Origin: a bacterium
Lineage (GTDB): Bacteria > Spirochaetota > UBA4802 > UBA5550
Assembly (NCBI GenBank): GCA_024224995.1
Contig: JAAENB010000905.1
Coordinates: 1-21,371, forward strand
Direction of reading: 5' to 3'
DNA: 21,371 nucleotides
Made by a program: the position numbers and the translations under genes. The notes under the pieces are model-generated. The model searched no databases. It saw only the letters and a list, made by a program, of their open reading frames with translations, and was not told the origin of the DNA. Shown piece after piece: positions 2,635 through 18,134 of the stretch; the stretch's first letter is position 1; every line of letters starts with the position of its first letter.

Positions 2635-4416
2635 ATGAACCTGTATAATAAAATACGCAGCCTTGACTATGTCAAACTGATTACAATGTTTTTTATCTTC
2701 CTCATCGTATCCCTGGTTCTCTCTTCTTTTGCCGGATGCGGCTCCAATGAAAACAGCTCAAACAGCACTTCTACCGAATATATTCCCCATATCGCCGTTA
2801 ATGAAATTGTTGCCAAAGACGCAAATAGCGGCAATGACTGGATAGAACTCTATATTAACGCCTCAGAAGCTGTCAATCTGGGTGAATACTCCCTGATTGA
2901 TGATGATGAAGACGGGGAAGCACAGGCTTTGCCGGATATTACCGTAAATCCGGGTGAATTTGTTATTATTTATGCCGCTGATGAGGACCCTGGCGACGGT
3001 TCCTATTATGTTCCTTTTAAATTGGGTTCCGATGACTCTGTTTCCCTGCTCCATAATGGTGAGGTGATCCACTCCCTTGACTGGGAAGACGGCGATGCCG
3101 CAAGCGGGTACAGTTACGGTCTGCTTACCGACGGCACCGGTGACGCTCAAAAACTCCTTCCTTCTATTGGTACAAACAACTTCGGTGTTTTTGCCGCGGA
3201 CAAAGTCGTGAAAGTTGAACTTGAACTGGCCGATTCCGCGTGGCAGGCCATTCTGGATGATCCCACTGCTGAAGAGTACCAGGAAGCCAATATCACCTTT
3301 GACGGGTATACGGTGAATACTGCTGCTGTCCGTACCAAGGGCAATTCAAGCCTCACTTCCGTTGCCAATTCCACTTCCGAACGGTACAGCCTTAAGGTTG
3401 ATTTGAATTATTATGTAGACGGGCAAGACCTCGTTGGCAACCAGAAACTCAATTTAAATAACGGCCATAATGATCCTTCTTTTATGCGCGAGTACCTTGC
3501 CTATGCTCTTATGAGAGGCATGGGGCTGCCTGCTCCCCGTACTGCCTTCGCGGACCTCTATATTAACGGGGATCACTTTGGGCTGTATACTGTTGTGGAA
3601 CAGGTGGATGATGAATTTGTTGAAAATAACTTTTCCGTTGATGACGGCGACCTGTATAAACCCGACGGCACCGGCAGTGACCTGGTTTACATCAGCGATG
3701 ATTTTAGCGACTATGATGGTATTGAACTGAAGACCAATGAAGATACCAGCGATTACAGCGCTTTTATTTCCTTTATCAATGAATTAAATTTCGGCAGTGA
3801 TTATGATTCGGTCCTCGATTCTGAGGCCTTTCTCAAGTACCTGGCCGTGAGTACCATCCTCACCAACCTGGACAGCTACCAGGGCGCTCTTGCTCATAAC
3901 TACTACCTCTATGAACAGGACGGTATTTTCACGGTCATTCCCTGGGATTTCAACGAGGCCTTTGGCACCTTTTGCATGAGCGGCTGCTCCGATGATGAAC
4001 TGCTCAATTTTCTCATTGACGAGCCAACCTCATCCACCTTAAGCGACAGGCCCCTGATCGATAAGATCTTAAGCAAATCCGCCAATGTTGCCGCGTATCA
4101 CGAATACCTCGAAGAATGTATCTCCGGTCCCTTTGCTCTTGCCTCCATGGAAACAAAGATTTCCGCTGCCGCGGATCTTATTCGTGATTATGTGTATAAC
4201 GATCCCACTAAATTTTTCACCACTGATGAGTTCGAATCGGCCATCTCCACTTCCTCAAATGTGGACGGCACCTTTGGACTTCTTTACTTTATTGAACAAC
4301 GTATTTCCAATGTCTCCGGCCAGCTCAACGGCTCTTCCTCTTCCAGCGGCGACGGGTCGGGCAGTTGTTCCGGCACCACTTCAGGTCCCGGGGGCGGAGG
4401 GGGGCCTCCTTTTTAA
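2635..4416 (+). CDS. CotH-kinase family lipoprotein with N-terminal lamin-tail domain
   Basis: A 593-residue lipoprotein, with lipobox FAGC at Cys35. Residues about 51-185 form a lamin-tail (LTD) domain: VNEIVAKD, DWIELY, PGEFVIIYA, FKLGSDDSVSL, GYSYG. Residues about 190-565 are a CotH-type domain: RTKGNSS, YSLK with Lys254 as the probable ATP-site lysine, LDSYQG with Asp413, HNYYLY and IPWDFNEAFG with Asp438. CotH proteins are atypical protein kinases, first studied as spore-coat kinases; the substrate here is unknown. The tail is Ser/Gly-rich and ends in GPPF. GGAGGT four bases before ATG supports the start. Paralogous to the gene at 5951. Export past the membrane raises the question of where ATP would come from. 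Confidence 0.92.
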   Translation: MNLYNKIRSLDYVKLITMFFIFLIVSLVLSSFAGCGSNENSSNSTSTEYIPHIAVNEIVAKDANSGNDWIELYINASEAVNLGEYSLIDDDEDGEAQALPDITVNPGEFVIIYAADEDPGDGSYYVPFKLGSDDSVSLLHNGEVIHSLDWEDGDAASGYSYGLLTDGTGDAQKLLPSIGTNNFGVFAADKVVKVELELADSAWQAILDDPTAEEYQEANITFDGYTVNTAAVRTKGNSSLTSVANSTSERYSLKVDLNYYVDGQDLVGNQKLNLNNGHNDPSFMREYLAYALMRGMGLPAPRTAFADLYINGDHFGLYTVVEQVDDEFVENNFSVDDGDLYKPDGTGSDLVYISDDFSDYDGIELKTNEDTSDYSAFISFINELNFGSDYDSVLDSEAFLKYLAVSTILTNLDSYQGALAHNYYLYEQDGIFTVIPWDFNEAFGTFCMSGCSDDELLNFLIDEPTSSTLSDRPLIDKILSKSANVAAYHEYLEECISGPFALASMETKISAAADLIRDYVYNDPTKFFTTDEFESAISTSSNVDGTFGLLYFIEQRISNVSGQLNGSSSSSGDGSGSCSGTTSGPGGGGGPPF

Positions 4417-4504: not shown

Positions 4505-5845
4505 GTGAAAGTTTTTATACATATTTTATTTATGACAGTATTAGTGTTCGCTGCTGCGGGCTGCGGTTCGGATGAGAGCGGTTCAGATGACGGTTCTTCG
4601 GCCAGTGCTTCGGAGTGGCTGGTGATTAATGAAGTTGCGGCAGATGCTGCCGATGGCGGGAATGATTGGATTGAGCTCTTTGTTATTGATGATGACAGCG
4701 CTGAAGCTGTTGACCTGGGCGATTATTCTCTTTCCGATGAGAGCGGTGAAGTTTCCGCGCTCCCTGCTGTTTCGCTCAATCCCGGTGAATATCTTATTAT
4801 GTACGCTTCAGGTGATGCCGGTGACAGCGATTATTCCCTTTCATTTAAATTAGGTTCAAGTGACTCCGTTTCTCTTTTGTTTAACGGCTCCGCTACGGGT
4901 ACTTCCCTCTCCTGGGAAAAAGATGAGGCTGCCATTGGCTATAGTTACGGCCTCTTTCCCAACGGTTCCGGCTCCGCGCAATCACTTGCCCCTACTAAAG
5001 GCGCCGCGAACGAAGAGCTTCCCTCTTCCTCGTCCCTTATTATTAACGAGATCCTTGCTGCTGATGTTTCGGGAGGCAATGACTGGATTGAGCTCTATGC
5101 CTCGGAAGATACGGATCTCTCGAATTACTCCCTGGTTGATGAAGACGGTTCCGCCCAGAGCCTGCCGGAAATTTCAGTTTCCGCCGGCTCCTATACCGTG
5201 ATCTACGCTGCCGAAGATGATCCTGGCTCCTACTATGTTCCGTTTAAACTGGGCGGAAATGACGCGGTTACCCTTCTCTACAACGGTACCCGTATTGATT
5301 ACATGGACTGGGATTCAAATGACGCCACTGCCGGTTTCAGCTTTGGCTGCCTTCCCGACGCCAGCGGCGGCAATGGCACGCTCACTCCCACGCAGGGAGC
5401 CGTTAACGAATCCGTTCCCGACTCCTTCCTGGTTATAAACGAGATCGTATCCAACGCCTCCGGTGACGGCGACGACTGGTTTGAGCTCTATGTTAAATAC
5501 GACAACGAGGCCAGTACCACGGTTTCCATTAGCAATTATTCTATTATGGATGACAGCGGCGCCATTGTTGCCCTGTCCGATGTTATTACGGACGCAAGCA
5601 GCTTTTCATCGGGGGACTACATTCTCATCTACGCCACCGATACCGATCCGGGTTCCTATTATCTCTCTTCATTCAAGCTGGGCTCAAACGACAGCCTTAC
5701 CCTGCTCTACAACAGCGCCGGTGTTGACTTCCTTGAATGGGATTCCGGTGACGCGCCCGAAGATTACAGCTATGGACTGCTTCCCGATGGTTCCGGTGAC
5801 GCGGATACGCTCTCGCCTACTCCGGGGGCGGCGAATGCCGAATAG
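4505..5845 (+). CDS. Lipoprotein with three tandem lamin-tail domains
   Basis: I start this 446-residue protein at GTG 4505, because AGAGAGG lies seven bases upstream and the next residues form a lipoprotein signal peptide with lipobox AAGC at Cys20. The open frame extends upstream to 4085, but that part overlaps the CotH gene in another frame and has no signal. Three lamin-tail domains follow: about 38-170, 177-303 and 308-446. Each shows V/I-INE, DW(I/F)EL, a PG-Y-I-IYA segment, FKLG--D-(L/V) and a Y/F-S-(Y/F)G segment. LTDs are immunoglobulin-like folds, in bacteria often found on surface or secreted enzymes and taken to mediate binding. No CotH or other catalytic domain is present. It probably shares surface partners with the CotH proteins on either side. 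Confidence 0.88.
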   Translation: MKVFIHILFMTVLVFAAAGCGSDESGSDDGSSASASEWLVINEVAADAADGGNDWIELFVIDDDSAEAVDLGDYSLSDESGEVSALPAVSLNPGEYLIMYASGDAGDSDYSLSFKLGSSDSVSLLFNGSATGTSLSWEKDEAAIGYSYGLFPNGSGSAQSLAPTKGAANEELPSSSSLIINEILAADVSGGNDWIELYASEDTDLSNYSLVDEDGSAQSLPEISVSAGSYTVIYAAEDDPGSYYVPFKLGGNDAVTLLYNGTRIDYMDWDSNDATAGFSFGCLPDASGGNGTLTPTQGAVNESVPDSFLVINEIVSNASGDGDDWFELYVKYDNEASTTVSISNYSIMDDSGAIVALSDVITDASSFSSGDYILIYATDTDPGSYYLSSFKLGSNDSLTLLYNSAGVDFLEWDSGDAPEDYSYGLLPDGSGDADTLSPTPGAANAE

Positions 5846-5950: not shown

Positions 5951-7684
5951 ATGAAAAAAACCACCCTTTTTACATTACTTATTTCTATCATATTTTTATT
6001 TTTTATAACCGCCTGCGGTTCAAGCGATAGCGGTTCACCAGGCGATGCCGGTTCCGCCGCTCTCATCATAAACGAGATCGTGGCTAAAGACGCCGACGGC
6101 GGCTATGACTGGATTGAACTCTACTCGTCGGGCTCGGCCGCGGTAGACCTGTCCGCGTACACGCTCCGGGACTCCGCCAATGATCCCGCGTCTTTCTCCG
6201 ACGCGACCCTGGCGCCCGGCGAATACCTTATCGTGTACGCCTCCGATGACGACCCGGGCGATAACTCCGCTTACGTTTCCTTTAAACTCGGTTCCCATGA
6301 CAGTGTTACCCTCCTGCAAAACGGAGAGTCTGTTGACTCCTTTGACTGGGACGACGGTGACGCGCCCGAAGGCTCCAGCTACGGCCGGCTGCCGGAGAAC
6401 AGCGAAAACATGGGTGAACTCTACCCCACTCCCGGCGCCGCCAATGCTGTTGCCGCAGAAATGTTCCCTTCGGACGAGGTAATTGAAGTACGCCTGGAAC
6501 TGAGCAATGCCGATTGGCAGGATATCCGGGCCAATCCCCTGGATGAAGAATTTCACCCGGGTACTATTGTTTATAACGGTATTACCGTTAACAATGTGGC
6601 CATCCGCACAAAAGGGAATTCAAGTCTCCGGAGCGTCGCCGAAGACCCGGACTCCGACCGGTACAGCCTCAAGATCGATTTTAATTATTATACCGATGGC
6701 CAGGATCTTATGGGATACCAAAAAATTGTCCTGAATAATAATTACATGGACCCTTCTTACCTGCGCGAAACTATCGCCTATAATCTTATGCGGGAAATGG
6801 GTCTGCCGGCGCCTCAAATCACCTTTGCCAACCTCTATATCAATGATGAACTCTTTGGCCTGTATACGGCGGTTGAAGCTATTGATGACGAATTCATTAA
6901 AGCCAATTTTGAGAACAGCGACGGCGACCTGTATAAACCGGACGGCCTCGGCTGTGACCTGTTATATGAAACCGGTAATGACAATTACTATTCCGGTCTC
7001 TGGGACTCCTGGATTGAATTAAATGAAGATACTACCGACCACGGCGCCATGCTTAACCTGGTCTATGAATTTAACTATGGCTCATCTTATGAGTCCGTCC
7101 TCGACATTGACTCCTTTCTCAGGTACCTGGCTGTAAGCACGGTCCTGGTTAATCTCGACAGTTACCAGGGCAGTTCCGGGCATAATTATTATATCTATGA
7201 ACCGGAAGACGGTGCTTTTCATATCCTTCCCTGGGATCTTAACATGGCATTTGGCACCTTTAGCAGCGGCTGTTCCCGCGATGAGCTTATCGCTTTTAAA
7301 ATTGACGAACCTACGGGCTGCGACCTTTGCGACAGGCCCTTAATCGAAAAGGTGCTTCAAAACGCCACATACCTGGCTGCCTATCACGGCTATATTGAAG
7401 ACCTGGTTGATGGCTCTTTCAGCCCCGCTGCCATGAAGGAAACCATTGAATCTTTTGCGGATCTGATTCGTGAACATGTCAATGCCGACCCTACTAAATT
7501 CTACTCCTTTGCTGAATTCGAACAATCCCTTTCAGAAGACGTGGGCTCCATAATCGGCCTGGAGGCTTTTGTTGACGAACGCTCCGCCAATCTCTCCGCC
7601 CAGCTCTCCGGCTCCGCCTCATCCTCCGGCGACGGCTCCGGCAACTGCAACTGCTCCTCCGGCGGACCCGGCCCCCCAAGGTAA
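5951..7684 (+). CDS. CotH-kinase family lipoprotein with N-terminal lamin-tail domain (paralogue)
   Basis: A 577-residue lipoprotein, lipobox ITAC at Cys22. It has the same architecture as the protein at 2635: one lamin-tail domain (about 38-167), then a CotH domain (about 172-555) with RTKGNSS, Lys241 in YSLKIDF, NLDSYQG with Asp403, HNYYIYE, and LPWDLNMAFG with Asp429. The two proteins match along their length, so this looks like a duplication. The Ser/Gly/Cys-rich C-terminus again contains SSSGDGSG and ends GPGPPR. AAGGAGA six bases before the ATG supports the start. The three lipoprotein genes 2635-7684 all run the same way with gaps of about 90-105 bases and may be one transcript. Kinase activity is inferred from family only. 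Confidence 0.92.
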   Translation: MKKTTLFTLLISIIFLFFITACGSSDSGSPGDAGSAALIINEIVAKDADGGYDWIELYSSGSAAVDLSAYTLRDSANDPASFSDATLAPGEYLIVYASDDDPGDNSAYVSFKLGSHDSVTLLQNGESVDSFDWDDGDAPEGSSYGRLPENSENMGELYPTPGAANAVAAEMFPSDEVIEVRLELSNADWQDIRANPLDEEFHPGTIVYNGITVNNVAIRTKGNSSLRSVAEDPDSDRYSLKIDFNYYTDGQDLMGYQKIVLNNNYMDPSYLRETIAYNLMREMGLPAPQITFANLYINDELFGLYTAVEAIDDEFIKANFENSDGDLYKPDGLGCDLLYETGNDNYYSGLWDSWIELNEDTTDHGAMLNLVYEFNYGSSYESVLDIDSFLRYLAVSTVLVNLDSYQGSSGHNYYIYEPEDGAFHILPWDLNMAFGTFSSGCSRDELIAFKIDEPTGCDLCDRPLIEKVLQNATYLAAYHGYIEDLVDGSFSPAAMKETIESFADLIREHVNADPTKFYSFAEFEQSLSEDVGSIIGLEAFVDERSANLSAQLSGSASSSGDGSGNCNCSSGGPGPPR

Positions 7685-7911: not shown

Positions 7912-8595
7912 ATGCTCGATTTCTTAACATTACAGACTACTTCACAAAATCCTACTGCCATTACTATCGTTTATACTGTTTTACTCTCTTTTGTTCTCGC
8001 GACCTCAATCGCCGTGACCTATGAGAAAACCTTTCGAGGATTATCGTATTCACGGAATTTTCTTCAAGCCCTTGTTCTCGGCGCTATTGTGGCCGGGATC
8101 ATTATGCAGGCCATTGGAGACAGCCTGGCCCGGGGCCTTGGCATGCTGGGCGCTCTTGCCATTATCCGGTTCAGGACCAATTTTAAAGATCCGCGAGATA
8201 TTATTTTTATGTTTGCCGCCCTGGCTGTGGGTATTGCTTCGGGAGTGTATGCCTTTACCATTGCCGCCATTGGTACCCTGGGCTTTTGCGCTGCCGCGTT
8301 TGTTCTTCATTATCTCCCAATTGGTTTTACCACCTATTACGACGGCATGCTCCGGTTTAATATTGAAAATACCATTGAAGATAAATCATTACTCGAAGAA
8401 ATTTTACTCGATCATTGCAAACTCTTCGCGCTCATTACCCTGCGGGATGTTTCCCAGGGCAAACGGCTGGACTACGCGTACCATGTTAAACTTAAAAAAA
8501 ATAAAAGAAGTGAAGATCTCATTCATGAGCTCAATTCCATCAGTTCTATTAAAGGAGTTAACCTGCTTCTCCAGGAAACTACCGTAGAACTGTAA
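7912..8595 (+). CDS. DUF4956 family inner-membrane protein
   Basis: A 227-residue membrane protein. Hydrophobic segments lie at about 15-36, 50-68, 72-86 and 97-135. The family signature is RFRTNFKDPRDIIFMFAALA (86-105) followed by VGIASG. The region from about 147 to the end is soluble and could be an ACT/ferredoxin-like domain, a layout recalling MgtC-type proteins (inference). No enzymatic function is established for DUF4956. I know the family as a frequent neighbour of CotH and VTC-domain genes, both present here, so it is a candidate membrane partner or conduit for the VTC enzyme at 12017. TGAGG lies before the ATG, and promoter P2 is just upstream. The next gene starts after 22 bases, indicating an operon. 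Confidence 0.9.
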   Translation: MLDFLTLQTTSQNPTAITIVYTVLLSFVLATSIAVTYEKTFRGLSYSRNFLQALVLGAIVAGIIMQAIGDSLARGLGMLGALAIIRFRTNFKDPRDIIFMFAALAVGIASGVYAFTIAAIGTLGFCAAAFVLHYLPIGFTTYYDGMLRFNIENTIEDKSLLEEILLDHCKLFALITLRDVSQGKRLDYAYHVKLKKNKRSEDLIHELNSISSIKGVNLLLQETTVEL

Positions 8596-8617
8596 GAGAA
8601 CTCGAAAGGTAAACGCT

Positions 8618-10549
8618 ATGCGAAATATTATAAAAAACACATTTTATCTTCTGCTGAGTATAAAAAAAATATACCTGGTATGCTTCTGCGCTCTCGTTAT
8701 TATTGTTGTAATAAATATCACCCATCGTTCGGAGCACGACAATTTCTTCGGTATTGCCGAAAGCAGGGAGATTGTTATTAATTTCGACAAAGCCGTGGAA
8801 ATTAAAAAAATTCACAAAACTCCGGGTCAGACCATCAAAGACGGTGAACTCCTTATTGAACTTGACAGGCCCGAGCTCACAAAGATGATCAGTGACATAT
8901 CTCACCAGCTTGAAGAACTCGAAGCGCAGCTTATTGTTAACACCAATACCATCAAAAACCGGATTAACCAGCTCCGGGTCGAGTTTAAGATTAACAAACA
9001 GCTTCTTGCCGGACTGCAAAGCCTGTCCGGTAAAGAAAACGCTCCCGCTATAAACACCGCCAACCTGCCCAGTCCCATTAAAATCAGGATTAGCAGTCTG
9101 CGGAAAGAATTAGAGCTCCTGGTTACTCCCATTAAGGTAAACATCCGCATGCTTGAAAAACAATTAACCTTGCTCATGGAAGAAAAAGAAAAACTGAATA
9201 TCTTTGCCGCCAGTTCCGGTCTTATTGGTTCCATCAATTTCAAAGAAGGCGAAAAAGTCGCTCCCTTTACTCCCATCATTACTGTCCATACGCGTTCTCC
9301 TTCTTTTGTGAAAGGATATATTCATGAAAATGTTTATAATAAAGTCCGCATCGGCCAGAAAACCACTATTATCTCCATGGCAAACAGGAATATCCGGGCC
9401 ACGGGCGAAGTGATTGGCGTTGGTTCACGGATCATTGAATACCCGGAACGGCTGCGGTTCCGTCCGGAGTTTAAAATCTGGGGGAGAGAAGTTCACATCC
9501 GCATTCCCGGCTCCACGGGTTTTCTTCTGGGGGAAAAAGTTCTTATTAACCCCGCGGGTCTTTCCGCTTCCCATAATTCAAATTTCTTTTTTTCCAAAAC
9601 CGGGTTTGCCAGTGAGAACAGGGATTGCCGCCCCAGGGATATTTCCACGCGGGGGACAACAGTAAGCTGCCCTGTTGAAGCTTCAGGTATTCTCTACCTG
9701 GCGGATATTAAAAAGTACCTGCTCATTAGCGACGAAACCCATAAGAATAAAGCGCTTCTGCATCTTATGGATTTAAACGGCACCATTGTTAAGGAAATCC
9801 CCATAAAAGGCTTAAAGAAAATCAATGATATGGAAGCGGTTTGCAAAGACGGCAAGGGGAATATTTTCCTCATTGCTTCTCAAAGCCGCAACAAAAAAGG
9901 GAAGCGTTCCAAAAAAAGAAAACTCTTTGTATGGCTGAAAAGGAATGGCCAGCAGTTTCAGCTCCATAAAAAAATCGCGCTGTATGATCTTCTCTCGAAA
10001 GCTTCGAGTGATTACAAATACCGGGAATGGGCCCGTTTTCTCTCGGGTTCAATAAAGAACAGTCAGGGTGATATTGACCTTAACATTGAAGGCATGTTTT
10101 TTTACCAGGGCGCTATTATCCTGGGTTTAAAACGCCCGTTCAAAGACGGTTATAAATCGGTTACGCTTAAATTGAATGATATCAAGAGCATTTTTTCCCG
10201 GAAAAAACTTTCCAAAGAGAGTGTTGAGCTGTGGAAAGAATTTTATTTAAAAGATCCCGTTACGGGAAAACCGGCTGCTATTTCCGACCTGTATTACGAC
10301 GGTTCTACCGTTTATATTCTTTCTTTTGTAAAAGGCCCGGCTGCGAAACGCTCAGGTTCTCTCTGGGCCTATTCGATGACAAAAGACAGGGTACGGCATA
10401 TTATGCCGTTTGAGGATATGCAGCCCGAAGGTATTACGGGGAACAGTGATACTGGCGAATTAGTGATAACGTTTGATAATGGTTCGGCAAAACCGTCACA
10501 GGTTTTGCGGATGAAGAAACCAGGGGTTACTGAGCGGGCAGTGGAATAA
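8618..10549 (+). CDS. HlyD-type membrane-fusion protein fused to a DUF3616/phytase-like beta-propeller
   Basis: 643 residues in two parts. N-terminal half: membrane anchor (about 17-34), first half-lipoyl motif (about 48-85), helical coiled-coil region with interruptions (88-195), second half-lipoyl motif around AASSGLIGSINFKEGE (198-213) and a beta-barrel to about 312, typical of periplasmic adaptors of tripartite export systems. C-terminal half (about 350-635): repeated beta phrases DMEAVCKDGKGNIFLI, NIEGMFFYQGAIILGLKRPF, ISDLYYDGSTVYIL and MQPEGIT, resembling DUF3616 or 'esterase-like activity of phytase' propellers. That half should lie in the periplasm. Such a fusion is not a standard adaptor layout. 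The last three codons and the stop lie inside hairpin A2. Same operon as DUF4956. Confidence 0.8.
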   Translation: MRNIIKNTFYLLLSIKKIYLVCFCALVIIVVINITHRSEHDNFFGIAESREIVINFDKAVEIKKIHKTPGQTIKDGELLIELDRPELTKMISDISHQLEELEAQLIVNTNTIKNRINQLRVEFKINKQLLAGLQSLSGKENAPAINTANLPSPIKIRISSLRKELELLVTPIKVNIRMLEKQLTLLMEEKEKLNIFAASSGLIGSINFKEGEKVAPFTPIITVHTRSPSFVKGYIHENVYNKVRIGQKTTIISMANRNIRATGEVIGVGSRIIEYPERLRFRPEFKIWGREVHIRIPGSTGFLLGEKVLINPAGLSASHNSNFFFSKTGFASENRDCRPRDISTRGTTVSCPVEASGILYLADIKKYLLISDETHKNKALLHLMDLNGTIVKEIPIKGLKKINDMEAVCKDGKGNIFLIASQSRNKKGKRSKKRKLFVWLKRNGQQFQLHKKIALYDLLSKASSDYKYREWARFLSGSIKNSQGDIDLNIEGMFFYQGAIILGLKRPFKDGYKSVTLKLNDIKSIFSRKKLSKESVELWKEFYLKDPVTGKPAAISDLYYDGSTVYILSFVKGPAAKRSGSLWAYSMTKDRVRHIMPFEDMQPEGITGNSDTGELVITFDNGSAKPSQVLRMKKPGVTERAVE

Positions 10550-10623
10550 GACCTTTTCGGATTGCTGCGGAACTCACTCCGTTCAGACAGTCCTCACAAC
10601 CCGAAAAGGTCTTATTCCACTGC
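10538..10623. repeat. Long hairpin element, type A, copy 2
   Basis: A perfect 23-bp inverted repeat (10538-10560 against 10601-10623) encloses a 40-nt core (10561-10600) that matches the core at 99-138 in 36 of 40 bases. The left arm covers the last three codons and TAA stop of the adaptor gene, so the element supplies that gene's 3' end. The arm contains GGAATAAG and ends TTTTCGG. The rest of the intergenic stretch to 10717 shows nothing else. Confidence 0.82.
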
Positions 10624-10717
10624 TGATGCTGTTGCTAATCTATAGCTGGTGAGGAATGTGCTTAGGGTTTGCGGGGATGGGGAACTGATTAATTGAGTAT
10701 ATGAGGAATTAACAAGA

Positions 10718-11986
10718 ATGAATAGACCTAAAAATATATCGAAACACTTACTTATTTCTTTCGCATTAGGGGTGTTGTTTTCAGTCAGCACGGGCGCTGA
10801 AGAGAAGGCTAATAAAATATCGTTGAGTGATTTTATTGGTACGGCGAAAAAGGATTTCGCGCTGGTTGCTAATAAAGAAAAAAATTCTTATTTGAGTAAG
10901 GCAGGGGGGAATACTCCCTTTATTGGCAATGTGGAGCTGCGGGGCGGGGTTGATGAAATGGACCTGGAGAAGCAAAAGTATTCGCTGCGGGTTAATCCCC
11001 TGGGTTGGGGTGAGACCGAAAGCCAGGGCAGGCTTTGCGCGGGTACCAAAAATTTTTACCGGACTCAGAAAGAGATTCTCCTGAGTACTGCCTTAAAGGA
11101 CCGGTACCTGCTTGCTCTTGACCTGGTTCACCAGGAGAAACTGTTGGGGATAAACAAAAAGCTGCTGGCCATACATTCGGATATTGTTACGGTATATAAT
11201 TCAAGGGCAAAAAGCACCGGTTTTAATATTGGCGACCTGGTTAAAGCGCGGCAGGATCTTTCCCGGTTAAAACTGGATATCCTGGACCTGGAAAACAGCA
11301 ACAAAAAAGCCGCTTCCCATATTGCCGCCTACCTGGACAGGAAGGGCCCTGTTCTTTTTAACACGGCATCTTTCGTTAGCGAAAAAGAGCTGAAAGAGCG
11401 GGTCTCGGGAAACAGCTTTTCGATTGATAATAAAAACATCTTTCTGGCGCATAACAGGAATTTAGTTAAACTCAAAAAAGGGAAGCTCGATTATGAAATT
11501 TCCGAAGGACGGCGCTACCTCAGCTTTGTTGAACTTTCTTACGAAACCAAAAACAGTTTTAGTTCCCGGGAGAATTATTCCGTTCAAATGGGCCTTACCC
11601 TTCCTTTTGTGAGCTCCGGCACGCTGAAAATTAACAGCAGAAAGCTCAGTTTAATAGAAGAAAAAAGAAAACTCCGGAAATTGAAATGGGACCTGGAAAG
11701 AAATTCAGGGATTATTAAACATGACATGAATACCCTTTTTCGCCAATACGAGCTTCTTTCCCCGGAACCGGGAAAGGCGAATCCTGCGGCGCCCTATTTA
11801 AAACTCGAGGGGATTGACCCGATGACTGTTCTTCTGGTTAAAAAGAAATCCGTGGAATTGGAACTGTCTCTTGAAAACACCAGGCACACTCTTTTTACCC
11901 GGTATGTGGATCTCCTGGAGATCTCGGGATACCTGGTTAAAAAACCCCTGAAGAATTATCTTCTTTCGGGCAGCCGGGAATTATAA
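10718..11986 (+). CDS. TolC-like outer-membrane efflux protein (divergent)
   Basis: 422 residues with a signal peptide (about 1-27, ending near STGA). Long amphipathic helices (about 100-205 and again 235-330) alternate with short beta-prone stretches such as FVELSYETKN and YSVQMGLTLPF, the pattern of the outer-membrane efflux (TolC) family. It is a little shorter than typical TolC proteins and the sequence is divergent, so the assignment rests on pattern and on context: it directly follows a membrane-fusion protein. Expected role: trimeric outer-membrane duct joined to the adaptor. GAGG lies 11 bases before ATG, a loose spacing. The 168-base gap from the adaptor gene contains hairpin A2; the VTC gene follows after 30 bases. 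Confidence 0.65.
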   Translation: MNRPKNISKHLLISFALGVLFSVSTGAEEKANKISLSDFIGTAKKDFALVANKEKNSYLSKAGGNTPFIGNVELRGGVDEMDLEKQKYSLRVNPLGWGETESQGRLCAGTKNFYRTQKEILLSTALKDRYLLALDLVHQEKLLGINKKLLAIHSDIVTVYNSRAKSTGFNIGDLVKARQDLSRLKLDILDLENSNKKAASHIAAYLDRKGPVLFNTASFVSEKELKERVSGNSFSIDNKNIFLAHNRNLVKLKKGKLDYEISEGRRYLSFVELSYETKNSFSSRENYSVQMGLTLPFVSSGTLKINSRKLSLIEEKRKLRKLKWDLERNSGIIKHDMNTLFRQYELLSPEPGKANPAAPYLKLEGIDPMTVLLVKKKSVELELSLENTRHTLFTRYVDLLEISGYLVKKPLKNYLLSGSREL

Positions 11987-12016
11987 AGAGAATTATAAAT
12001 AAGGAGAAAATTTAAT

Positions 12017-12862
12017 ATGAATACTCTACACAGATCTGTACGGACAAAAACAAAAAAAAGAAAACCCGATATGGAACGGTATGAGCTGAAATATACCATT
12101 CCCGAATATATGATCAATCCCATTAGCGACTATCTCTCTATTTACTGCTCTCCTGATGAATACTCGGAAAAATCAAAGGACGGATTTTACCGTATCAATA
12201 ATCTCTATTTCGACTCCGATTCCTTTCTCTTTCTGAGAAGAAAACTCAATGAAGTTCCGGACCGCTTTAACATGCGCATTCGGTCCTACGGCGAACATCC
12301 CCGTCCTCCCTATTTCCTGGAGATCAAAAATAAATCAATCGATATTGTAAAAAAATACCGCGCCAAAACCTATACCAAACAACTGGAAAACCTGTTCAGT
12401 GAACCCGGCACGCAAACATCCGGCTCCTGCTGCGGAGATATCACCCCTGGTATTCTTCAATTTGTTTCCCTTGCCCAGACCTATAATGCCACTCCCAAAA
12501 TACTTACCCAATACGACCGCCGGGCTTTTGTCTCTACTGTGGACGACTACGCCCGCGTTACCTTTGACAAAAACCTCTGTTACCAAAACCATCAAAACTA
12601 CTCTGTGGTCCCTAACAATAGTTTGATGATACCCTATGATAATACTACCCTTTTTGATTCCGGCTCCACTGTTATCCTGGAACTTAAATGCCCCTCTCTC
12701 CAGGTTCCCTACTGGATGATAGATCTGGTTAAAACTTTTAATCTTAAACGGCGAGGGTTTTCCAAATACGCTACCGGTGTTGCTGAAGTTCTCAATCAAT
12801 TTCAATACGATAAAAGCGACAGAGACTCCATTACCGGGCGACAAAGGCTCAACATTCGTTAA
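12017..12862 (+). CDS. VTC-domain polyphosphate polymerase
   Basis: 281 residues, almost entirely one VTC domain of the triphosphate-tunnel superfamily. Visible signatures in order: RYELKY (21-26), LYFDSD (63-68), MRIRSYG (86-92, the paired tunnel arginines), FLEIK (100-104), KKYRAK (112-117), YDRRAF (166-171), ARVTFD (179-184), LELKC (221-225) and FSKY (248-251). In eukaryotic VTC4 this fold makes polyphosphate from ATP on a metal-bound tunnel lined by such Arg, Lys and Glu residues. Here the protein has no membrane segment, so coupling to the membrane would need a partner, plausibly DUF4956. The start uses AGGAG ten bases upstream; Met19 is an alternative without a clear ribosome site. It ends the run begun at 7912. 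Confidence 0.9.
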   Translation: MNTLHRSVRTKTKKRKPDMERYELKYTIPEYMINPISDYLSIYCSPDEYSEKSKDGFYRINNLYFDSDSFLFLRRKLNEVPDRFNMRIRSYGEHPRPPYFLEIKNKSIDIVKKYRAKTYTKQLENLFSEPGTQTSGSCCGDITPGILQFVSLAQTYNATPKILTQYDRRAFVSTVDDYARVTFDKNLCYQNHQNYSVVPNNSLMIPYDNTTLFDSGSTVILELKCPSLQVPYWMIDLVKTFNLKRRGFSKYATGVAEVLNQFQYDKSDRDSITGRQRLNIR

Positions 12863-13023: not shown

Positions 13024-13058
13024 GCCAGTGCATATAGAATGCCATTCAGGAGGTTTTC

Positions 13059-13310
13059 ATGAACGTTGAACAGGCATACGCCAACCTGGCTTTAAGCGAA
13101 AACGGGTTTCTTTTTGATGCCCTTACGGGCAATACCTTTTCTCTGAATAAAACCGGCAAACTGATCCTGCAAGGTCTTATTAAAGGCGAATCCCGGGACC
13201 AGCTTACTGCCGATATTATTGACCGGTTTGAAATTACGGAAGATATTGCCCATAAAGATATTCAGCAGTTTATTCATCACCTTAAAGAAATGGGCGTTAT
13301 TCCAAAATGA
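13059..13310 (+). CDS. PqqD-like small protein
   Basis: 83 residues resembling the PqqD family: an N-terminal beta part, LSENGFLFDALTGNTFSLN (12-30), then NKTGKLILQGLIKGESRDQL, a winged-helix-like helical part, and a C-terminal helix with FIHHLKEMGVI. PqqD domains usually bind a peptide substrate and hand it to a modifying enzyme. No precursor peptide or radical-SAM protein is seen nearby, so here it may instead bind a protein partner. AGGAGGT four bases upstream is a strong ribosome site, and the 16 bases GGAGGTTTTCATGAAC are identical to those at the first CotH start. The stop overlaps the next start by four bases (ATGA). Confidence 0.75.
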   Translation: MNVEQAYANLALSENGFLFDALTGNTFSLNKTGKLILQGLIKGESRDQLTADIIDRFEITEDIAHKDIQQFIHHLKEMGVIPK

Positions 13311-15956: not shown

Positions 15957-18134
15957 ATGGAAAACACAATTGTAAATAATAGATATGCGGGACAAAAGAA
16001 AACTTTTCCTTCGCTGAAGATGGCTGCCGGTTTTCCGGAACATATTCTTGTTGGGTATGCGCAGGTTTATTTTTCACGGAAATGGTATGTGGGGATTTTC
16101 TTTTGCGCGGCTACTTTTGTTATTCCTGCGGTGGGCGCGGCAGGTCTCGCGGGGCTGCTCCTTTCGAACCTGTTTGCGTGGCTGCTGGGTCTTTCGCGAA
16201 AACAGATCAATGATGGTTTTTTTGCCTATAATGGGCTTTTGACCGCTCTTGCGCTGGGTCTCTTCTATAGAATAAGTCTTCCCTTTGCTGCTATGCTTTG
16301 TATCGCTTCTTTCCTGGGTGTTCTTATTGCTGCCGGAGTACGGTCTTTGTGCGACCGGTACTTATTTGTGCCGGTGCTCTCGACTCCCTTTGTTCTTACT
16401 ACCTGGATTATTATCGCGGCAGGAGAAAAATTCGACGGGCTCATTTACGCGACAGAGTCCTTTGAGGTTTCCCTGTTGAGCGGTCTTCTGCCGGAGAGTG
16501 CTGCGTTTATGGTCCGGTCTTTTGGGGCCGCTTTTTTTCAGCTCAGTGTTCCGTCCGGCATTCTTGTCGCTTGCGGTATCCTCATATTCTCCCGGCAGGG
16601 CTTTATGCTGGCCGCGGGCGGGCTTTTTATTGGCGCTGCTTTTTATTCCTTTCTTGGCGGTGAGCAGTTCGATCTTCATAACCAGTGGATTGGGTTCAAC
16701 TTTGCCCTTACGGCGATTGCCGTTGGCGGCATGTTTGTTGTTCCGGGGTGGCGTTCGTTTCTCCTTGCTTTCGCCGCCGCTCTTCTTGCCGCTGTTATTT
16801 CCGCGGCTGCCGCCATTGTGCTTGCCCCTTTGAAACTGCCTCCCCTGGCGTTTCCTTTTATTGCCGCCACGTCCATTGTTATATACGCGCTCAAAAACCG
16901 GGTTTCTCCCCGTTTCCTGGAAACTATTAATTTCCCCCAGGATTCTCCGGAAAAAAATCTTGAACGGTCGAGAAATAAACAGGTCCGGTTTGTTTTTGGC
17001 GATATTCCTTCTTTTGAACTGCCCGTCTCCGGCGAGTGGTCCGTTTCCCAGGGCTTCAATGGAAAACATACTCACCAGGATCTCTGGGCTCACGCGTGGG
17101 ATTTTGAAATTCCCGGGTCCGGGGGGGCTTCTCTTGATGATTACTCCGCGTGGAAAAAACCCGTTTTCGCTCCTGGCGACGGCACTGTTGTACGGGTTAT
17201 TAATCATATTGAAGACAATACTCCGGGCCAGGTAAACTTGAAAGATAACTGGGGTAATACCATTGTGCTCCGGCACTATGGCCTGGTCTATTCCGCCCTC
17301 TCGCATCTCGCGCTGAATTCTATTAGCGTTAAAGAAGGCGATTCCGTTAAAAAAGGCCAGCCCCTTGCACTGGTGGGCAATAGCGGCAGAAGTCCCGTTC
17401 CCCACCTCCATTTCCAGGTCCAGTACAGCCCGGAACCGGGCGCTCCTACCGCTGACTCCAGACTTCTTCATTACCTGCTGCGGGAAGATGATTCCCGGAC
17501 ATGGATTACCTCGGGCGTTCCCGCTGCCGGTTCAAGAGTTATGCCGGTTTTCAGTGATTCGAAATTCTTTGATGCCGCTTCTTTTCCCGTTGGCGGCAAA
17601 TGGTCTTTTTCTGTTTTTAACGGAAAAAAAAGATGGGCCGAAACCTGGGAAACCAGGATCGATTTTGCCGGTAACCGGTCCCTGGTATGCCGCGAGAAAA
17701 AAACCAAAGTCGATTTTTTTGTTAATAAAAACTTTTTGCTCCTCCTGGATTACTCCGGTCCTTCGAACTCCGCCCTTGAGTGGTTCTTCCTGGGGCTTCC
17801 CCGGCTGCCCTTTTCCGGCAACCCGCTTTGCTGGTCCGATGAAATTCCGGCAAAAAAAATGATGAATCCTTTTCTTAATATTCTATTTGATATTATTGAA
17901 CCCTTTTATTCCCCGGCCGCGATTGTTTCCTCATCTCGCGCTACGAATACCCCTCGCAGGGGTCGCACCCCTCTTAACGGTTTTGCCGTTTGTTCTGTTC
18001 TTCACCTCAAACCCCGGGAAATCACTATTGAAACGTCCTTTGAGTTTAACAAGGGGCTTTCTTCTATCCTGGTTAAAAAAGGCGATGAACTAATTTTTGA
18101 AATTACACAGGAGAATACCAATGGCTATTCCTGA
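15957..18134 (+). CDS. Urea-transporter family protein fused to M23 peptidase domain
   Basis: 725 residues. Residues about 25-315 are hydrophobic with about ten membrane segments in two similar halves, including NGLLTALALG (92-101) and FNFALTAIAVGG (247-258), matching the urea transporter (UT) family. After a linker comes an M23/LytM-type domain (about 355-500): THQDLWAHAWDFEIP with His373, His379 and Asp382, PGDGTVV, SHL (His450), VKKGQPLALVGNSGRS and HLHFQ (His483, His485), so the zinc ligands appear present. A C-terminal region of about 200 residues is unassigned. The peptidase should face the periplasm. I recall similar UT-M23 fusions in other bacteria, so the join is probably real. The ribosome site (AGGGA) is weak. 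It overlaps the next gene by 14 bases. Confidence 0.82.
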   Translation: MENTIVNNRYAGQKKTFPSLKMAAGFPEHILVGYAQVYFSRKWYVGIFFCAATFVIPAVGAAGLAGLLLSNLFAWLLGLSRKQINDGFFAYNGLLTALALGLFYRISLPFAAMLCIASFLGVLIAAGVRSLCDRYLFVPVLSTPFVLTTWIIIAAGEKFDGLIYATESFEVSLLSGLLPESAAFMVRSFGAAFFQLSVPSGILVACGILIFSRQGFMLAAGGLFIGAAFYSFLGGEQFDLHNQWIGFNFALTAIAVGGMFVVPGWRSFLLAFAAALLAAVISAAAAIVLAPLKLPPLAFPFIAATSIVIYALKNRVSPRFLETINFPQDSPEKNLERSRNKQVRFVFGDIPSFELPVSGEWSVSQGFNGKHTHQDLWAHAWDFEIPGSGGASLDDYSAWKKPVFAPGDGTVVRVINHIEDNTPGQVNLKDNWGNTIVLRHYGLVYSALSHLALNSISVKEGDSVKKGQPLALVGNSGRSPVPHLHFQVQYSPEPGAPTADSRLLHYLLREDDSRTWITSGVPAAGSRVMPVFSDSKFFDAASFPVGGKWSFSVFNGKKRWAETWETRIDFAGNRSLVCREKKTKVDFFVNKNFLLLLDYSGPSNSALEWFFLGLPRLPFSGNPLCWSDEIPAKKMMNPFLNILFDIIEPFYSPAAIVSSSRATNTPRRGRTPLNGFAVCSVLHLKPREITIETSFEFNKGLSSILVKKGDELIFEITQENTNGYS
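17949..17990. repeat. Small hairpin repeats inside the UT-M23 gene
   Basis: ACCCCT-CGC-AGGGGT-CGC-ACCCCT (17949-17972) allows two alternative hairpins and is followed by AACGG-TTTTG-CCGTT (17976-17990). It is read in frame as a Thr/Pro/Arg/Gly-rich patch (around TNTPRRGRTPLNG) that looks unlike the surrounding protein. It may be an inserted repeat that kept the frame. Confidence 0.45.

Follow-up and report, generated by a model that had tools for sequence, protein, structure and literature searches.

Can a bacterial polymerase send its own product across two membranes without a dedicated pump? This question is raised by a run of four genes on contig JAAENB010000905.1, of which a stretch of 21,371 nucleotides on the forward strand (the window; coordinates without a locus name are positions in it) was analysed. 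The four open reading frames (ORFs), all on the forward strand, encode a DUF4956 membrane protein (7912-8595, 227 aa), an adaptor of the membrane-fusion type (8618-10549, 643 aa), a TolC-like outer-membrane protein (10718-11986, 422 aa) and a VTC-domain protein (12017-12862, 281 aa), with spacings of 22, 168 and 30 bp in that order. This content and order, with two CotH genes and an LTD gene upstream, had been proposed in a preliminary description made from the letters alone, and is borne out by Pfam, by the ORFs and by relatives. The four genes almost certainly work together as one module. Our favoured reading, to which we give a probability of roughly 0.55, is that they form a synthase-driven, pump-less trans-envelope export module for the VTC product, most likely polyphosphate.

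Recurrence was assessed around the adaptor gene in 51 loci, namely 50 from public genomes and the window, 31 of which are well flanked (at least 5.5 kb on either side). When all six frames are considered, the well-flanked loci contain the TolC-like gene in 31/31 cases, DUF4956 in 30/31, VTC in 30/31 and all four genes in 29/31. These counts are not independent, about one third of the 31 loci belonging to a single rumen group of close relatives. With contig-end loci included, all four genes are found in 39 of the 51. The preliminary description would have been weakened by relatives in which adaptor and TolC-like genes do not accompany VTC and DUF4956; they do accompany them, and this recurrence rules out a chance clustering of the four genes. 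The two well-flanked exceptions are L040, without VTC, and L047, without DUF4956. Intergenic gaps are of -4 to 0 bp in many module loci, and Bdellovibrio bacteriovorus strain kdesi (L029) carries a compact four-gene copy in a complete genome. The locus records come from Desulfobacterota and relatives, Fibrobacterota, Bdellovibrionota, Spirochaetales and rumen bacteria, and, as cut contigs, from Planctomycetota and Cytophagales.

The association was also followed from the VTC side. Matches to VTC were found in 8 of 247 genomes from the Desulfonema magnum phylum and in 38 of 191 from that of B. bacteriovorus. Among 48 surveyed VTC loci, each confirmed to contain a VTC frame, an adaptor gene lies near 23, accompanied by TolC in 22, DUF4956 in 21 and CotH in 2; the other 25 have no adaptor, and there this TolC gene is found in none, DUF4956 in 21 and CotH in 12. 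A tree was built of 80 VTC proteins; a single branch (SH-like approximate likelihood-ratio test, 92) separates its 57 module members from the other 23, long branches among the non-module proteins making the outer placement unsure. The module trait changes once on this tree, compared with a mean of 20.3 changes in shuffles, of which 0/500 were as low, a test inflated by near-copies. The tree omits pieces shorter than 200 aa (L006), identical sequences, and L008, L094 and L124; both the tree and the neighbour lists keep the longer of overlapping ORFs, so that a masked neighbour may be missing. What the analysis shows is which genes the module contains, to which fold classes their products belong, that the catalytic residues are conserved, that the genes are inherited together as a module, and that no pump was recognised in the operons examined.

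The VTC-domain protein of the window consists almost entirely of its domain. PF09359 matches residues 21-257 of 281, far over its cut-off (145 bits vs 23, E 3.6e-42), and is its sole Pfam match; no SPX domain was found in the protein and no hydrophobic or membrane segment is predicted in it. NCBIfam gave no match for 32 VTC proteins. The best solved match of a profile of the relatives is yeast Vtc4 (3g3q, 4.4e-8), with Vtc2/3 ranking behind. When R264, R266 and E426 of Vtc4 are replaced together, the complex is catalytically impaired, according to PMC9911596, and the counterparts of these three residues are invariant in 32/32 relatives, window protein included. By homology, the window protein is predicted to be a polyphosphate-making enzyme, with polyphosphate as its probable product. 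In the record of Desulfamplus magnetovallimortis (L006:13582-14402), the VTC gene is split in two pieces.

The DUF4956 protein is recognised by PF16316 over its cut-off (39.3 bits vs 30.6, E 7.2e-10). The MgtC family, PF02308, stays under its cut-off in the window protein (10.7 bits vs 31.4); it is weakly matched (E<=1) by 29/34 DUF4956 relatives, at best with 8.6e-5, and in genome G002 its model falls by position on the module gene with 2.0e-4, also under the cut-off. These matches, a predicted model of low confidence (predicted local distance difference test, pLDDT, 63.8), a fold search and conservation point to an MgtC-like membrane part (residues ~14-134) followed by a C-terminal ferredoxin/ACT-like domain (~144-220). 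In the fold search, the C-terminal ACT/ferredoxin part was matched among the matches listed, none of which reaches E<=0.001, and the sequence had no match to solved structures. Conservation concentrates on basic residues: R86 and R88 are kept in 77/77 DUF4956 proteins compared (58 module, 19 non-module), the R86-F87-R88 (RFR) motif is invariant in the module proteins, and K or R stands at positions 39, 92 and 95 in 58/58 of the latter. PMC9911596 describes the yeast VTC complex as coupling synthesis to a membrane channel whose wall has basic residues; by analogy, the kept basic residues of DUF4956 fit with a path for an anionic chain.

The adaptor protein is composed of two halves. The first (8618-9553, forward strand, residues ~1-312) consists of an N-terminal membrane helix, a barrel-sandwich, an alpha-hairpin (85-136/153-191) and a beta-barrel; PF16576 (HlyD_D23) is over its cut-off (35.7 bits vs 30, E 7e-9), and this half matches MacA and EmrA, the former by fold. 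The assignment as a membrane-fusion protein made at the outset holds for this half, and had overlooked the second (9653-10519, forward strand, residues ~346-634), which is predicted to be a YjiK-like beta-propeller. Its fold comes from a predicted model, because a profile search against solved structures gave YjiK only, at E 0.47; the SdiA-regulated profile and all other Pfam scores on the window propeller are under cut-off. An alignment of 26 of the 36 eligible loci sequences reveals invariant or nearly invariant Glu, Ser and Asp positions in the propeller. It differs from the YjiK/SdiA-regulated, DUF3616 and Phytase-like propellers in being fused to an export adaptor; a literature search on YjiK/CANT1 returned, among the matches listed, CANT1 work only. 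An adaptor ORF of at least 560 aa with a propeller is found in 37/51 loci, the two halves being separate ORFs in L039 and L043. The adaptor has at least 91 homologues. Of those listed, 24 (P0068-P0091) are 353-407 aa long and align with 45-53% of the query, the remaining ones spanning 70-100%. The hairpin of the window protein looks as if it were shortened on both arms, 18 residues being absent in each of two stretches by comparison with most relatives.

The 422-aa protein is assigned as TolC-like by family membership and by its linkage to the adaptor. The window protein itself has no Pfam match even at E<=10; OEP (PF02321) is matched at E<=1 by 20/32 aligned relatives (best 1.1e-6), and, by position at the module gene, over its curated cut-off in 2/5 genomes, in one of them only with the neighbours in frame. 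A profile of the family gave nothing useful against solved structures.

Adaptors and ducts of this type usually work with a pump, and the preliminary description supposed that DUF4956 replaces it. A Pfam scan of ten window proteins revealed no ABC, RND or MFS component. None of 134 operon-neighbour ORFs combines a Walker A motif with an ABC signature, and 91 of these neighbours, all of at least 150 aa and from a set without L090 and nine rumen-group loci, match none of the ABC, RND or MFS families in the best 25 of 73 families; CstA is found for one of the 91, within the same 25. ATPase-permease-sized gene pairs in L001, L010, L012 and L046 were rejected as pump candidates, being response regulators and histidine kinases. 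These two-component genes are co-directional with the module (L001:14256-16375, L010:7314-10222, L012:1959-3916 and L046:6470-9887), hinting at its regulated expression.

A wider scan for pump motifs covered 938 frames of at least 150 aa around 74 loci, from -6 to +8 kb of the adaptor. ABC-like frames were found outside the operon in 7/74 loci. Those of the Bdellovibrio group (L029, i.e., kdesi, L097, L098 and L100) lie on the strand opposite to the module, and those in L037, L048 and L112 on the same strand, kilobases upstream. In kdesi, the frame (L029:13574-14326, ~250 aa, ABC-ATPase-like) is directly convergent with the VTC gene, and it lies one gene further in L097, L098 and L100. A dedicated pump gene pairing with adaptor and TolC in other genomes would also have weakened the preliminary description; none was recognised among the co-directional operon neighbours, a result qualified by these nearby ORFs. 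Frames with at least seven predicted transmembrane (TM) segments number 30 around the 74 loci. Twelve of them are a 303-321 aa protein of the rumen group, with 7-9 predicted TM segments, encoded directly after DUF4956 (L024, L027, L028, L030, L031, L033, L034, L036, L037, L038, L042 and L046) and with no Pfam family matched in L042 and L037, each of which was scanned singly. Frames of 441 aa with 11 predicted TM segments lie upstream in L016, L017 and L114, and a 784-aa neighbour in L116 has no Pfam family. A large co-directional protein, of 1109-1150 aa where complete, accompanies the module in L016 (13722-17051) and its kin (L014, L017, L111 and L114); it has no Pfam match in L016. Near adaptor-less VTC genes, the 112 neighbouring proteins gave, in the best 25 of 109 families, MFS_1 in 2 and no OEP or HlyD.

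How, then, could the product leave the cell? In the favoured reading, the VTC protein would polymerise ATP-derived phosphate at the cytoplasmic face, and the growing anionic chain would cross the inner membrane by way of DUF4956, assembled into an MgtC-like passage. The adaptor would take up the chain, its C-terminal propeller perhaps lying near the membrane and binding metal or the chain, which would then be led outward via the TolC-like duct. Polymerisation itself would be the driving force and would make a pump unnecessary, an idea put forward before for the eukaryotic VTC complex and for synthase-dependent polymer secretion. It appears reasonably probable that the VTC product leaves the cell through this duct; whether this product is polyphosphate and its synthesis drives its export is, in our view, evenly balanced. 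Polyphosphate as the product, the DUF4956 channel, the outward direction, the coupling, and the place and role of the propeller are inferred.

One of the closest known counterparts is the eukaryotic VTC complex (Vtc1/3/4), which likewise has a VTC/TTM (triphosphate tunnel metalloenzyme) polymerase domain with conserved catalytic residues, a small membrane protein as a subunit of its own, membrane-adjacent basic residues, and a proposed coupling of synthesis to translocation. Unlike it, the module has a VTC protein without SPX, nearly all of whose 281 aa are VTC domain, a membrane partner that is MgtC-like and ACT-like instead of the three-helix Vtc1 subunit, and, in addition, an envelope-spanning adaptor and TolC-like protein. 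MacAB-TolC and EmrAB-TolC share with the module an HlyD-type adaptor (membrane helix, hairpin, barrel) and an OEP-like outer-membrane partner, whereas the module operons have no recognised ABC, RND or MFS component and their adaptor carries a propeller. In synthase-dependent secretion (alginate, cellulose, Pel), a polymerase drives passage via the inner membrane, a periplasmic part and an outer-membrane channel. The passage proposed here would be polymerase-driven in an analogous way, but with another polymerase fold and product and a TolC-type duct. The preliminary description knew of no bacterial polyphosphate exporter of this make-up; none was found described in the open-licence literature, which also gave nothing on DUF4956 together with polyphosphate and, for CotH kinase together with polyphosphate, a single paper on C. 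perfringens genomes.

Several observations weigh against this reading. In L040, no VTC gene lies beside DUF4956, adaptor and TolC; L047 lacks DUF4956; and the short contig L012 carries adaptor, TolC and CotH but neither VTC nor DUF4956. Both L012 and L040 belong to genomes that have VTC genes elsewhere. The surveyed VTC genes without an adaptor (25/48), the ABC-like ORFs near the module in 7/74 loci, a 1056-residue, RND-sized frame with 11 predicted TM segments on the opposite strand beside the module in L099, the extra polytopic protein without a Pfam family in the rumen-group modules, and the low confidence of the DUF4956 model (pLDDT 63.8) point in the same direction. The strongest counter-evidence is that, in the accessible part of PMC12345266, no difference in aggregation or Pel is reported for a Streptococcus intermedius mutant of the VTC gene (SIR_1593), whereas aggregation is lower and Pel higher in the DUF4956 mutant (SIR_1592), and Pel levels are altered in DUF4956 and CotH mutants. 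Because these mutants differ, VTC and DUF4956 need not share a pathway in that species.

Part of this evidence would be explained if the adaptor and the TolC-like protein exported another cargo, which could be a polysaccharide, a lipid or a lipoprotein, by means of a pump from another locus, and if VTC and DUF4956 did no more than regulate or modify the cargo or the local phosphate. The CotH, VTC and DUF4956 genes beside the Gram-positive pel operon may act likewise, and the S. intermedius phenotypes, the loci L012 and L040, where adaptor and TolC have no adjoining VTC, and the nearby ABC-like ORFs are all in line with it, as are the polysaccharide deacetylase genes beside some modules (6/91 neighbours). 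On the other hand, no recurrent polymer synthase or pump family appears among the operon-neighbour matches listed, and there are hardly any exceptions to the linkage with one VTC subclade. We consider this alternative unlikely, if the most serious one.

A second alternative takes the VTC protein not for a polyphosphate polymerase but for a phosphohydrolase, or for a phosphotransferase that makes something else, and supposes that phosphate polymers are moved inward, or degraded inward or in the periplasm. Caution is called for by an N-terminal R-x-E-x-K retained in the alignment of VTC relatives. TTM phosphatases carry an acidic patch that Vtc4 does not, according to PMC4641920. In the window protein, the acidic-patch positions, mapped by TTM residue numbering since the HMMER alignment starts later, are a basic R10 and an acidic E12. 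The latter we take to be the acidic-patch Glu, which fits a phosphatase and counts against the export of polyphosphate; the former, at the first position of the patch, is basic, presumably as in Vtc4. As the Vtc4 polymerase is the best solved relative, ahead of Vtc2/3, and the polymerase residues are kept, this alternative seems improbable.

The upstream genes encode three lipoproteins on the forward strand. An LTD and CotH kinase-like protein of 593 aa (2635-4416, lipobox FAGC; PF08757 5.1e-67, PF00932 7.4e-10) is followed by a protein with three LTD domains (4505-5845, lipobox AAGC; PF00932 4.8e-27 over three stretches), whose start is probably the GTG at 4505, with the lipobox after it, rather than that of the ORF listed from 4085. 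The third, an LTD and CotH kinase-like protein of 577 aa (5951-7684, lipobox ITAC; PF08757 2.9e-71), has a match to solved structures of spore coat protein H (5jd9/5jda, 1.4e-15). PF08757 is over its cut-off in both CotH proteins, the lipoboxes are identified by motif, and PF00932 is matched in all three proteins. Both CotH proteins carry NLDSY...HNYY...PWD[FL]N, some residues of which we take to be catalytic; the first reads NLDSY..HNYYLY..PWDFN. The second CotH gene is separated from DUF4956 by 227 bp, and the CotH genes may for this reason have a transcript of their own, separate from that of the core genes.

The placement of CotH and LTD with the system stands as adjacency in the window and not as membership of the core, since CotH is found near 13/31 well-flanked adaptor loci and in 2/23 adaptor-bearing VTC loci, both in the Desulfonema phylum. 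Type I-like secretion, in which the CotH/LTD proteins would themselves be the cargo of the duct, is suggested by this adjacency and by these 13 loci and is very improbable, as the lipoboxes on both window CotH proteins lead one to expect a Sec/Lol route, CotH is found in 0/21 VTC loci that have the adaptor in the Bdellovibrio phylum, and the operons have no ABC ATPase by motif. Next to pel clusters lie genes for CotH, a polyphosphate polymerase and DUF4956 (PMC7112168), and Clostridium perfringens NELoc-2 holds VTC and CotH genes (PMC2879425). These Gram-positive clusters resemble the module in having VTC and CotH together and, in the pel clusters, DUF4956 with an MgtC part and ACT; adaptor and TolC are not named in the available parts of PMC7112168, PMC12345266 and PMC2879425, and pel genes adjoin. 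In contrast, CotH is optional here and the adaptor/TolC pair belongs to the core. One speculation is that exported polyphosphate could feed surface CotH kinases; the combined proposal of pump-less, VTC-driven polyphosphate export across both membranes with the polymer as phosphate donor for surface CotH, in an ATP-free compartment, is tentative and, taken as a whole, rather doubtful.

If export by the module is real, it would be a bacterial counterpart of the yeast VTC complex and an adaptor/TolC system operating without a pump, and would give a testable role to DUF4956, to the module VTC subfamily and to the adaptor-propeller fusion. The module may also be an alternative polyphosphate source in PPK1-negative genomes, because no PPK1 match was found in 11/16 module genomes, some of them incomplete drafts, in a search limited to PPK1 and not covering PPK2. 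The copy in the complete genome of B. bacteriovorus kdesi opens the question to genetics.

Downstream of the module, an ORF of ~83 aa (13058-13306), which we take to resemble a PqqD-like protein, precedes ATP-grasp and pyridoxal phosphate (PLP)-decarboxylase genes, with which it may form a separate biosynthetic unit. Further on, a single 725-aa protein (15957-18134) joins, by Pfam, a urea transporter domain to an M23 peptidase domain.

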